From Microcaldota archaeon (GTDB lineage: Archaea; Micrarchaeota; Micrarchaeia; Burarchaeales; Fermentimicrarchaeaceae): DNA of 49,566 bases. Below the pieces are notes generated by a model, which worked only from the letters and a program-made list of their open reading frames with translations, did not search any database and had not been told where the DNA came from. This document shows positions 36,171 to 41,344 of this stretch, piece after piece. The stretch lies in NCBI GenBank assembly GCA_013425405.1, contig JACCLF010000023.1, forward strand, positions 1 through 49,566. The letters run 5' to 3'. The position numbers and the translations under genes are program-made. Positions within the stretch are counted from its first letter, which is position 1; each line of letters opens with the position of its first letter.

Positions 36171-36239
36171 TTGTCAGTAATGCTTATATAATCCAAGAAA
36201 ATAAAATTTCTGGGTGAACTTGTTTACGGAGGTGGGCAC

Positions 36240-36749
36240 TTGTTATATCTTTACACCGGGGAAGGAGGCGGCAAGACGACTGCTGCCCTGGGGCTTGCTC
36301 TGAGGTCTGTGGGGCACGGGCACAAGGTTGTGGTGATTCAGTTCATGAAAGGCAGGAAGGATATTGGGGAGTACAAAATAGCGAGGAGGCTGCACCCAAA
36401 TTACGAGATTCACCAGTTCGGCAGGGAGGAATTTGTAGATTTGAAGAATCCTGCAAAGGAGGACAGGGAGCTTGCTGAGAATGGTTTGAAGTTTGTAAGA
36501 GAGGTTTTGGGGAGAAGACCAAACCTGCTTGTGCTTGACGAGCTGAACCTTGCGGTCGCCGCGGGGCTTGTGAAAATTGAGGATGTGATGAAACTGCTTG
36601 ATGAGGCTCCAAAGGACATGGTGATAGCAATAACCGGGAGGCAGGCTCCAAAGGAGCTCATCTAGATGGCGGATTTTGTGAATGAGGTGAAGGATATAAA
36701 GCATCCTTACGGGAAGGGCATTCCCGCGCAGGAGGGCATACAGTACTGA
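36240..36749 (+). pseudogene. cobO: Cob(I)alamin adenosyltransferase (CobO/BtuR) interrupted by in-frame TAG at 36663..36665
   Basis: MLYLYTGEGGGKTTAALGLALRSVGHG (TTG start, GGAGGTG RBS), VIQFMKG, LLVLDELNLAVAAGLV, GRQAPKELI-TAG-MADFVNEVKDIKHPYGKGIPAQEGIQY in one frame. Confidence 0.87.
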
Positions 36750-36758
36750 GGTGGAAGA

Positions 36759-37223
36759 ATGAGATGCCCCTACTGCTCTAATGCAAAAACAAATGTGATA
36801 GATTCGCGCGATGTGGGCGAGCTAGAGATTACCAGGAGGAGGAGGCAGTGCAGGAAATGCAAGAAGAGGTTCACTACGTATGAGCGAGTGGAAACAATTG
36901 ATTTGGTTGTGATAAAGAAGGATGGGAGGAGGGAGAAGTTTTACAGGGATAAGCTGCTCGCTGGCGTGCAGAAGGCATGCGAGAAGAGGCCCATAAGTCA
37001 GGAGAAAATTGAGAGTTCGGTTGAGGAAGTTGAAAGGGAGCTCAGAAACATGGAGACACTGGAAGTGGAGAGCAGCAAGATTGGGGGGCTGGTCATGAAG
37101 AAGCTGAAGAGGCTTGATAAGGTTGCTTACATAAGGTTTGCCTCGGTGTATCGCTCCTTTGCGGATATTGAATCGTTTGAGAATGAGCTAAGGGCGATGA
37201 GAAGAAAGCTGAAAAGAAGGTAA
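36759..37223 (+). CDS. nrdR: Ribonucleotide reductase transcriptional repressor NrdR
   Basis: MRCPYCSNAKTNVIDSRDV...RRRRQCRKCKKRFTTYERVE zinc ribbon + ATP-cone. Confidence 0.96.
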   Translation: MRCPYCSNAKTNVIDSRDVGELEITRRRRQCRKCKKRFTTYERVETIDLVVIKKDGRREKFYRDKLLAGVQKACEKRPISQEKIESSVEEVERELRNMETLEVESSKIGGLVMKKLKRLDKVAYIRFASVYRSFADIESFENELRAMRRKLKRR

Positions 37224-37282: not shown

Positions 37283-37298
37283 CTACTATAGGTTGTGT
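37283..37298. promoter_or_regulatory. NrdR-box-like palindrome 2 (CTACTATAGGTTGTGT)
   Basis: 12/16 match; 16-bp spacer from box 1. Confidence 0.62.
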
Positions 37299-37324
37299 TG
37301 AGCGTATATTATGAAGGTGATGGG

Positions 37325-40300
37325 ATGGAGGGAAAGGCGACGGTTACTCAGATTAAAAAAAGGGAAGGGAAGATTGTTGAGTTTGACAAGAGCAAAATAA
37401 CAAACGCTATTTTCAAGGCTGCAGTCGCAGTTGGAGGGGAGGACAGGGAGACTGCAGAGAAGCTTGCGGATAAGGTTGTTGAAATTGTGAATGAGAATTT
37501 TGCAGGAAAGGTTCCGACAGTTGAGGATGTGCAGGATACTGTTGAGAAGGTGCTCATTGAGAACGGGCACGCCAAAACTGCAAAAGCGTATATTCTCTAC
37601 AGGCAGAAGCGAGCTATTCTCAGGGAGCTGAAGGCCGAGCTGCTCAATGTTCCCGTGGATGAGGTGGACAACAAACTCACTGTGAATGCAATAAAAGTTT
37701 TAGAGAGAAGGTATTTGAAGAAGGATAAGAACGGGAATGTGGTTGAGACTCCCAAGCAGATGTTCAGGAGGGTCGCAAAGGCTATTGCGCTTGTTGATAT
37801 GTTCTACGACAAGAACGTTGACACACTGCAGATGGAGGAGGAGTTTTATAATGCTATGATTAACCTGGAGTTCCTTCCCAATTCTCCAACTCTGATGAAT
37901 GCTGGCACGGAAATAGGACAGCTCTCTGCATGCTTCGTGCTTCCCATTGATGATTCCATCGAGAGCATATTCAATGCGGTGAAAAATACTGCATTGATTC
38001 ACCAGAGTGGAGGGGGCTGCATTTCGGAAGGCTCAAAAGTTTTCACAACGATGTGCGGTATAGAAAATATAGAAATTGTATACGGAAAATGCGCTAAGGA
38101 AAGGCAGCCTTTGAAGGATAAGTCATGCGAATGGATAGATATATCTGATAAAAATATTCATACTCTTGCGTTTAATCCAAACAACAATACATTCTACAAT
38201 GATAAAATAACCAGGATATGGAAATACCTGAAAGTCAATCCTGCATGTAACATTGAGACATCGGGACCGCAGATAATTACAAGCCCATGGCACCCCTTCT
38301 TTGTCTTAACCCCTGAAGGTCTTATTAAAGAGAAAAGGGCTGATGAGTTGCAGGTTCAAGATATTGTTGTTAGAGCTAACGATACCATTCTTCCTGCTTG
38401 GCCATTTGAATCTTATAATAGCATATCTGGCATAAATGTAGATGAAGATATTGCATGGTTGTTGGGCTTCTGGACTGGGGATGGCTCTGTTGGGAATTCG
38501 AAAAATGGTCTACGTTTCCGCTTATTTGACGGTAGAACAGATTGCCTAAAAAAAGCTCAAAGAATATTGGATAAGAAATTTGGGATAAATGTAAAAATCC
38601 AAAAGGATAGCAGAGGCGAGGCGTACAGCTTAACCACAACGAATAAAGATTTCGTCAATAACTGGCTTAGTCTCAATAATGGAATTGTTGGTTCAAAAGA
38701 GGGCAAACTAACTATACCTTCCTTCATTATAAAATCTCCATTGAAGGTTGTTTGCTCATACTTGGCTGGACTCATAGATTCTGATGGTTATGTTGATAAC
38801 AGAAATTCAAGAGTCTCTTTTGCCACTACATCCTATGCGCTAGCAGAGCAGCTTATTTACATCTTGTCTTTACTAACCCTAGACCCAAAAGTTCGAAGAA
38901 GGCTTCCGTATGGGAACGGTAAACGCATTGTTTACGATGTCACCTTTTCAACATGCGAGAGAGCGGGCAAGCTAAAGGAACTTTTATTGCCCTATATGTA
39001 TGATAGTTTTAAGAAGGAAAGACTTACCAATCAAAAAATTTCAAAGGTTGGAAAAGCAAGTTGCCTGCCAATAAAATTTGAGTTCATCGAGCAGTTCCTT
39101 AATGAGCTTGAGATAGGAACTCATTCAACAGCCATACATAAAAAACCCGTGCATATTAGCAATAAAAAGTTCTGGTTACATCGCTTAAGATGGGGGCTTG
39201 GTATTAACAGATTGTATCTCCTTAGAGTCTTGCAAGAACTCTATAAAGTAAGTAAAAACAAGGATAGTAAGGAAAAAATTGCTAATTTAATAAAGGTAGT
39301 GCAAACTTGTGTTGTTGTTAAAAAAATCACGAAGGTTGCTACAACTCGGCCGTTCTATGATTTCACAGTTGAGAAGCATCAGAACTATCTTGCCGGCATA
39401 AATGGATTTTCCGTAGTTCACAACACGGGCTTCTCTTTCTCAAAACTGAGGCCGAAGGGGGATGTGGTGAAGTCAACCGGAGGAATTGCCAGCGGCCCTG
39501 TCTCTTTTATGAGGGTGTTTGATGTTTCAACTGATGTAATAAAGCAAGGGGGAAAAAGGAGAGGAGCCAACATGGGGATGCTCAGAGTGGATCATCCGGA
39601 TATATTGGAGTTTATAACTGCCAAGAGCAGCACACACGCATTGAACAATTTCAACATATCCGTTGCAGTGACTGATAAATTCATGGATGCCGTGGAGAAG
39701 GATGAGGATTATGACTTATTGAATCCCAGGAGTGGAACGCCGGTTGACAAGCTGTCTGCAAAAAAAGTTTTCAAGCTAATAGTGCAGCAGGCATGGAAGA
39801 ACGGCGAGCCCGGGGTGGTTTTCATAGACAAGATAAATGCTGCAAACCCGACTCCTTCCCTGGGGCAGATTGAGAGCACTAATCCATGTATAGCTGGTGA
39901 TTCTCTCGTATCAACTGCAAATGGAATGGAGAGAATGGAAGAACTAGCCAGTGCGGGAGAAGCGGAAGTGTGTGTGGATAACCGAATGCTTGCAATGAGT
40001 GCTGTTTCTAGCGATGGTGAAAGGGCAGTCAGCAGAACAGGAACCTCGCTGAGCCATGTCAGTCGGATATGGATGAGCGGCATGAAAAATACTATGAAGT
40101 TTGTCACAAGGAGCGGTTTGAGTATTGTCGCAACACCAGATCACAGAGTAATGACTACGGAAGGGTGGGTGGAGCTGGGGAAGCTGGTGCCTGGGAGACA
40201 TGGGGTGTTTGTGCAGGGTGGCGGGCTTGACGAAGTTGCAGAAGTCTCGCCGTTTGGAGTGATTCCTGTTTACGACTTGACAGAGCCGAGAACACATTCA

Positions 40301-41344
40301 TTCATAGCAAATGGGATAGTGATTTCAAATTGCGGTGAGCAGCCTCTGCTCTCCTATGAGTCATGCAATCTGGGTTCAATAAACCTCTCAAAAATGGTGA
40401 AAGAGGATGGGGAGATTGAGTGGGAGGGGCTGAGAAAGGTTGTGTGGACCGCAGTGCATTTCCTGGATAATGTGATTGACGCGAACAAGTACCCGATTCC
40501 TGAAATTGAGAAGATGAGCAGGGGGAACAGGAAGATTGGGCTGGGCGTGATGGGATTTGCGGATATGCTTTTCCAGATGGGAATTGCCTACAATTCTGAG
40601 AAGGCTGTTGAAGTTGCTGGGAGTGTCATGAGGTTCATAAACGACGAGAGCAAGAAGGCATCGGAAAAGCTTGCCGAGAAGAGAGGGGCATTCCCGAATT
40701 TTGAGAGAAGCGTTTACAACAAGCCCGGCGCACCCATGCTGAGGAATGCCACAACGACGACAATTGCCCCTACAGGAACATTGAGTATTATTGCTGGATG
40801 CTCCAGCGGTATTGAGCCTCTGTTTGCAATTGCCTATGTGAGAAGGGTGATGGACAACACGGAGCTGCTGGAGGTTCATCCAGTGTTTGAGAGAATTGCA
40901 AGAAAAGATGGGTTTTACAGCCTGGAGCTCATAAGGAAAATTGCCAAGAGCGGGGGAGTGCAGGGTGTTGAGGAAGTTCCCGATAAATGGAAGGAAGTTT
41001 TCGTAATAGCCTATGGGGTTTTGCCTGAGTGGCATGTGAAAATTCAGGCGGCGTTCCAGGAGTACGTAGACAACGCGGTTTCAAAGACGATAAACTTCCC
41101 GGTGGATGCAACCCCTGAGGATGTTGAGAAGGTGTACCTGCTTGCTTACAAGCTCGGGTGCAAGGGCGTAACAGTATACAGGGACAAGAGCAGGGAAGGG
41201 CAAGTGTTGAGCATAGAGGCTTTCAAGGGAGGGAAGAAGAAGGAAATTATTGAGGAAGGGGCTGTGGCGCACCCCAACGGAGTTGATGAAAACGGGGTGA
41301 TTGCTGCTGATTATGCCGGCGGGTGCGAGACCTGCCATGCCTAG
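37325..41344 (+). CDS. nrdJ: Adenosylcobalamin-dependent (class II) ribonucleotide reductase with two inteins
   Basis: N-terminal ATP cone; NLEFLPNSPTLMNAGTEIGQLSACFVLPIDDS; HQSGGG/TGFSFSKLRPKGD; ESTNP/CGEQPLLSYESCNLGSINL; C-terminal CETC; start at MEGKATV. Confidence 0.95.
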   Translation: MEGKATVTQIKKREGKIVEFDKSKITNAIFKAAVAVGGEDRETAEKLADKVVEIVNENFAGKVPTVEDVQDTVEKVLIENGHAKTAKAYILYRQKRAILRELKAELLNVPVDEVDNKLTVNAIKVLERRYLKKDKNGNVVETPKQMFRRVAKAIALVDMFYDKNVDTLQMEEEFYNAMINLEFLPNSPTLMNAGTEIGQLSACFVLPIDDSIESIFNAVKNTALIHQSGGGCISEGSKVFTTMCGIENIEIVYGKCAKERQPLKDKSCEWIDISDKNIHTLAFNPNNNTFYNDKITRIWKYLKVNPACNIETSGPQIITSPWHPFFVLTPEGLIKEKRADELQVQDIVVRANDTILPAWPFESYNSISGINVDEDIAWLLGFWTGDGSVGNSKNGLRFRLFDGRTDCLKKAQRILDKKFGINVKIQKDSRGEAYSLTTTNKDFVNNWLSLNNGIVGSKEGKLTIPSFIIKSPLKVVCSYLAGLIDSDGYVDNRNSRVSFATTSYALAEQLIYILSLLTLDPKVRRRLPYGNGKRIVYDVTFSTCERAGKLKELLLPYMYDSFKKERLTNQKISKVGKASCLPIKFEFIEQFLNELEIGTHSTAIHKKPVHISNKKFWLHRLRWGLGINRLYLLRVLQELYKVSKNKDSKEKIANLIKVVQTCVVVKKITKVATTRPFYDFTVEKHQNYLAGINGFSVVHNTGFSFSKLRPKGDVVKSTGGIASGPVSFMRVFDVSTDVIKQGGKRRGANMGMLRVDHPDILEFITAKSSTHALNNFNISVAVTDKFMDAVEKDEDYDLLNPRSGTPVDKLSAKKVFKLIVQQAWKNGEPGVVFIDKINAANPTPSLGQIESTNPCIAGDSLVSTANGMERMEELASAGEAEVCVDNRMLAMSAVSSDGERAVSRTGTSLSHVSRIWMSGMKNTMKFVTRSGLSIVATPDHRVMTTEGWVELGKLVPGRHGVFVQGGGLDEVAEVSPFGVIPVYDLTEPRTHSFIANGIVISNCGEQPLLSYESCNLGSINLSKMVKEDGEIEWEGLRKVVWTAVHFLDNVIDANKYPIPEIEKMSRGNRKIGLGVMGFADMLFQMGIAYNSEKAVEVAGSVMRFINDESKKASEKLAEKRGAFPNFERSVYNKPGAPMLRNATTTTIAPTGTLSIIAGCSSGIEPLFAIAYVRRVMDNTELLEVHPVFERIARKDGFYSLELIRKIAKSGGVQGVEEVPDKWKEVFVIAYGVLPEWHVKIQAAFQEYVDNAVSKTINFPVDATPEDVEKVYLLAYKLGCKGVTVYRDKSREGQVLSIEAFKGGKKKEIIEEGAVAHPNGVDENGVIAADYAGGCETCHA
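38018..39424 (+). mobile_element. Intein 1 (469 aa) with LAGLIDADG homing endonuclease
   Basis: C1 (CISEGSKVFTT), TSPWHPFFVL block B, WLLGFWTGDGS and YLAGLIDSDGYV endonuclease motifs, VVHN/T splice junction. Confidence 0.95.
39887..40330 (+). mobile_element. Intein 2 (148 aa mini-intein, no endonuclease)
   Basis: CIAGDSLVST, VATPDHRVMTTEGWVELG, VYDLTEPRTHSFIANGIVISN/C. Confidence 0.94.

Follow-up and report, generated by a model that had tools for sequence, protein, structure and literature searches.

The window analysed here is a stretch of 49,566 nucleotides that forms contig C14 of a metagenome-assembled bin of the genus Ca. Fermentimicrarchaeum (Micrarchaeota). The bin (G000) comprises 945,707 bp on 58 contigs and is 91% complete and 6.5% contaminated. 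On the forward strand of the window lies cobO (cobA), which encodes an ATP:corrinoid adenosyltransferase. Its frame opens with a TTG at 36240, meets an in-frame TAG at 36663–36665 and runs on to a TGA at 36747–36749. A Shine-Dalgarno-like sequence, GGAGGTG (36228–36234, +, with GGAGG at 36228–36232), is found 5 nt 5' of the TTG, and a congener contig in the same bin (G000:C1) likewise carries ggaggtgggcatTTG at this site. The 141 codons ahead of the TAG (36240–36662, +) match PF02572 and TIGR00708/NF004637 and encode the P-loop, DE and TGR motifs. Directly 3' of the TAG is an ATG (36666), from which 27 in-frame codons (36666–36746, +) lead to the TGA; according to TIGR00708 and a model of the read-through protein, they encode the last beta strand (residues 146–149) and the conserved C-terminal tail, and they would be beyond the ribosome's reach if the TAG terminates. 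An earlier note on this DNA had described cobO as split in just this way, and the coordinates and frame are as it reported. The comparison of congeners suggests that the TGA (+) is the original stop, with TGA at the same position in one relative (G003), TGA in a second (G002) and TAG in a third (G001).

The gene directly downstream is nrdR, encoding the transcriptional regulator of ribonucleotide reductase (RNR; 36759–37223, +; TIGR00244, 193.7 bits, above cut-off), and it is followed by nrdJ (37295–41344, +). As the earlier note had proposed, the latter encodes an adenosylcobalamin-dependent class II RNR (TIGR02504, 719.5 bits, above cut-off); its Pfam domains and the comparison with a congener indicate two inteins and an intact frame. 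The LAGLIDADG intein (about residues 242–710) is missing at the same point of nrdJ in F. limneticum, and the mini-intein (about residues 865–1012) is common to both.

The two parts of cobO belong together. The read-through protein matches PF02572 with 186.5 bits (range 184–186.5 bits; cut-off 25.7) and contains the GxGxGKT P-loop, DE and TGR motifs that, with a profile score above the curated cut-off, define the CobA/CobO/BtuR family. These motifs are invariant or almost so among 43 homologues, and all 10 invariant columns of that alignment are kept in the cobO product, nine of them inside the 141-codon piece. The unbroken frame including the C-terminal tail that members of the family have is interrupted here by the TAG at 36663, and the 141-residue piece alone reaches 110.2 bits against TIGR00708, below the cut-off of 167.75. 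On this profile the 141-residue piece covers positions 7–149 and the 27-residue tail positions 151–177 (E 3.7e-6 for the tail). By this alignment the two pieces follow each other without a break on a single CobA profile and the tail is the true homologous C terminus, as had been suspected, which rules out a chance arrangement of open reading frames. Compared with known members (PF02572, TIGR00708; Salmonella CobA, 1g64 and 4hut), the read-through product corresponds to a full CobA whose tail aligns to the end of the Salmonella protein, whereas the stop after residue 141 splits off the last 27 residues, a feature absent in the other members examined.

Structural models indicate what truncation would remove. 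The read-through CobO was modelled with a pLDDT of 95, and its best structural match was Salmonella CobA (1g64, TM 0.82–0.83); the last part is predicted to form a helix (138–143), the strand at 146–149 and a short helix (156–159). In the model of the 141-residue protein the core is kept, and confidence drops around residues 31–50, from 94/91 to 79/80 per block. Among the 43 homologues, the lost tail contains one invariant residue (G166) and the near-invariant A144, D145, V147, K154 and I167, so its loss probably impairs the enzyme.

The stop is private to this genome. The congeners compared were Ca. Fermentimicrarchaeum limneticum Sv326 (G001, CP058998), Sv174 (G002, JACCLG) and two bins from Lac Pavin (G003 and G004). 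In the three that cover the TAG site cobO is uninterrupted, with GAC in G001 and GAG in G002 and G003; the comparison with G004 stops short of the site, where the gene is cut by a contig end. Matches to cobO were found in 28 of 301 genomes of the phylum, and solely in this genome do they contain an internal stop. It is likewise absent from 57 further related loci, which mostly have E or D here. The stop is thus missing in close relatives, and the codon comparison marks the TAG as a change private to this genome that a single base separates from a sense codon, GAG. The earlier note had asked whether the TAG is conserved in siblings, and it is not; by the note's own rule, siblings with an uninterrupted cobO narrow the options to an error of assembly and a private mutation. 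Private codon changes upstream of the stop are 31 synonymous and 4 non-synonymous, against 3 and 3 from the stop onward with the TAG included (Fisher p = 0.05; 0.15 without the TAG). The non-synonymous excess in the tail would fit relaxed constraint as a weak hint, too small to rely on.

One way in which some full-length CobO could still be made is readthrough or suppression, with a residue inserted at the UAG. The tail is still homologous and in frame, as it would be if translated, and in-frame stops with low dN/dS have been reported as common, mostly short-lived, in bacteria (PMC7918605). The codon usage of the genome speaks against such decoding. For a census of stops, F. limneticum open reading frames were aligned to the bin, and 672 genes with 179,513 aligned residues were kept. 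TAG ends 213 of 660 conserved genes (~32%), beside 300 for TGA and 147 for TAA, which bears out the earlier note's view that TAG serves as a normal stop. Across the 672 genes, only the cobO TAG is a clear interior nonsense codon, flanked by conserved coding sequence on either side, the other interior stops having been sorted by eye into N-terminal leaders, extreme C termini and spurious antisense frames. A cytidylyltransferase-like gene (L083:4113, TAG vs CAG) was considered as a second interrupted gene and dismissed on inspection, the codon lying in an N-terminal leader, with a plausible start further downstream.

The decoding machinery gives the same picture. No tRNA with a CUA anticodon was found in the ~91% complete bin with ARAGORN and the Rfam tRNA model; three Rfam matches unassigned by ARAGORN have anticodons GCC, CGA and TCC, as read by eye. 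No pylS was found above the cut-off, the best match scoring 25.9 bits against 178. Since ARAGORN overlooks some of the tRNAs that are expected and ~9% of the genome is missing, a tRNA could have escaped detection, and the tRNA evidence does not settle the matter by itself; stop-codon usage is the stronger argument against recoding. Amber recoding would call for pylS with a CUA tRNA, and for a TAG that is avoided as terminator and present inside several conserved genes. Here TAG is a normal terminator without conservation at the cobO site or a second interior occurrence in a real gene, and neither a CUA tRNA nor a pylS was detected, so amber recoding or pyrrolysine is unsupported and was rejected. 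Readthrough of any kind is accordingly very improbable. In F. limneticum, ARAGORN also called a tRNA-SeC (tca) with an intron (L193:2703–2807), which may be a false call; it found no tRNA-SeC in the genome of the window.

The ATG directly after the TAG raises a different option, in which ribosomes stop at the TAG, restart at the adjacent codon and produce the missing 27 residues as a separate peptide, so that the complete enzyme consists of two chains. Reinitiation has been measured in archaea, where it requires overlaps or very short distances (PMC10666635; PMC6728339), so it would be possible across a distance of 0 nt (PMC10666635). Stop and start adjoin at 36663–36668, and a Shine-Dalgarno-like AAAGGAG (36650–36656, +) lies 9 nt ahead of the ATG. 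In these respects the site resembles overlapping, translationally coupled gene pairs (PMC6728339; PMC10666635), from which it differs in a second frame of just 27 codons that is not conserved as a gene of its own, and in a stop and start that do not overlap (distance 0 rather than -1 or -4). The AAAGGAG encodes a conserved P-K-E and also occurs in the uninterrupted gene of G002, which has no TAG/ATG (ccaaaggagttgattgagata). Motifs as strong precede 221 of 4215 internal in-frame ATGs (~5%) and 40 of 407 gene starts. The codon after the TAG site is ATG here, ATA in G002 and AGA or AGG in the other congeners, so that the ATG is one transition from the ATA of G002. Ordinary coding sequence accounts for both elements. 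Neither points to a site designed for reinitiation, and the sequence bears no sign of selection for restart at 36666. The split is kept in no relative, with cobO uninterrupted in the three congeners and all other members of the phylum, and the tail is without sign of extra constraint. The 27-residue piece is modelled as a buried strand and tail and not as a domain. Reinitiation is mechanically possible and, on this evidence, unlikely to be what happens at cobO; a two-chain CobO, with the peptide docking back to supply the fold's last strand, is most improbable. No positive support was found for either reinitiation or readthrough.

Of the three candidates that the earlier note had named, the fresh nonsense mutation therefore gains from the comparisons, and readthrough and a selected reinitiation site lose. 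The explanation that we prefer, with a probability of roughly 0.47, is a recent G-to-T nonsense substitution, private to one lineage or strain, that turned a GAG of its sole cobO into the TAG. It is favoured because the congeners are intact, the stop is private, TAG is a normal terminator and no suppressor was found. It shares with the private nonsense substitutions and young pseudogenes of prokaryotes (PMC7918605) a single-base stop, conserved flanks and restriction to one lineage; it differs in being seen in one genome only, a metagenome bin, and in the consensus alone.

The bin is of mixed strains, so the base may not be real, and an error of consensus or assembly is the serious competitor of a nonsense mutation. 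The true base at 36663 would then be G, and the wrong one would stem from low coverage or mixed strains. Contig G000:C1 (L077, 1–16363) is collinear with the window from 19.6 to 36.5 kb at 74–89% identity. Within cobO, its end and that of Sv174 contig JACCLG010000037 (k141_9492144) share an overlap of exactly 141 bp. Since this overlap equals the k-mer size given in the contig's name, G000:C1 is, on sequence grounds, demonstrably a mis-binned contig of the sister species Sv174. The two contigs are read as neighbours in one k=141 assembly graph that branched within cobO itself. Strain mixing in the bin is demonstrated at the cobO locus; an error at 36663 itself is not. In G002 and G004, too, the cobO match breaks off where a contig ends. 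For one nonsense codon to arise by chance in 536,967 coding bases, only ~25 random errors (4.6e-5 per base) would be required, a rate that a metagenome consensus could plausibly have. In addition, cobO is expected to be essential. Against an error stand the rest of the gene, which is clean, free of frameshifts and marked by the steady private divergence described above, and the rarity of broken frames genome-wide (3 weak frameshift candidates in 593 genes), which indicates that the consensus is generally good. An erroneous base is a substantial possibility, if a tentative one.

Two other readings were considered and rejected. The 71-codon cobO fragment on G000:C1 is not a second functional copy, as it belongs to the mis-binned sister-species contig and is not a paralogue. 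A local chimera within cobO is not indicated, as a walk of identity to G001, G002 and G003 was without an abrupt switch. Elsewhere in the bin, the contig pairs L096/L144 (G000:C21/C39) and L092/L128 (G000:C17/C23) share 10–11 kb of matching DNA, mostly at 76–87% identity, and are probably further co-binned congener contigs.

The physiological setting bears on both the mutation and the error. CobO is the sole corrinoid adenosyltransferase detected in the genome, and class II NrdJ is the sole RNR detected. In this genome and the four congeners, no PduO-type adenosyltransferase (PF01923), class III RNR (PF13597), class I small subunit (PF00268) or CobS (PF02654) was found. The earlier note had argued that loss of cobO would matter, and these searches strengthen the point: a true null would matter because the only detected RNR is of class II and the only detected adenosyltransferase would be gone. 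A real loss would be costly unless adenosylcobalamin is supplied from outside, which weighs against a nonsense mutation; dependence on CobO speaks for some remaining activity or, alternatively, for a base that is not real.

If the nonsense mutation is real, a G-to-T change would have turned GAG into TAG, and ribosomes would stop there and release a 141-residue CobO. Its P-loop ATPase core would be kept, with the final helix cut short and both the last beta strand and the conserved C-terminal tail lost. A change this young would leave the tail recognisable, and the cell would rely either on whatever activity the shortened enzyme retains or on importing ready-made adenosylcobalamin. Both the reality of the substitution in the population and this physiological consequence are inferred. 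In either case, the evidence points to an ordinary event, a recent mutation or a consensus error, and not to new decoding. The case is mainly a caution: where a metagenome bin is mixed, one in-frame stop should not be taken as evidence for recoding. Should the stop be real, damage would have struck the one adenosyltransferase detected in a tiny archaeon whose only detected RNR depends on adenosylcobalamin. Without any CobO the cell would have to obtain adenosylcobalamin from outside, and the damage would imply either uptake of the finished coenzyme from neighbours or a truncated enzyme that tolerates the loss of its tail.
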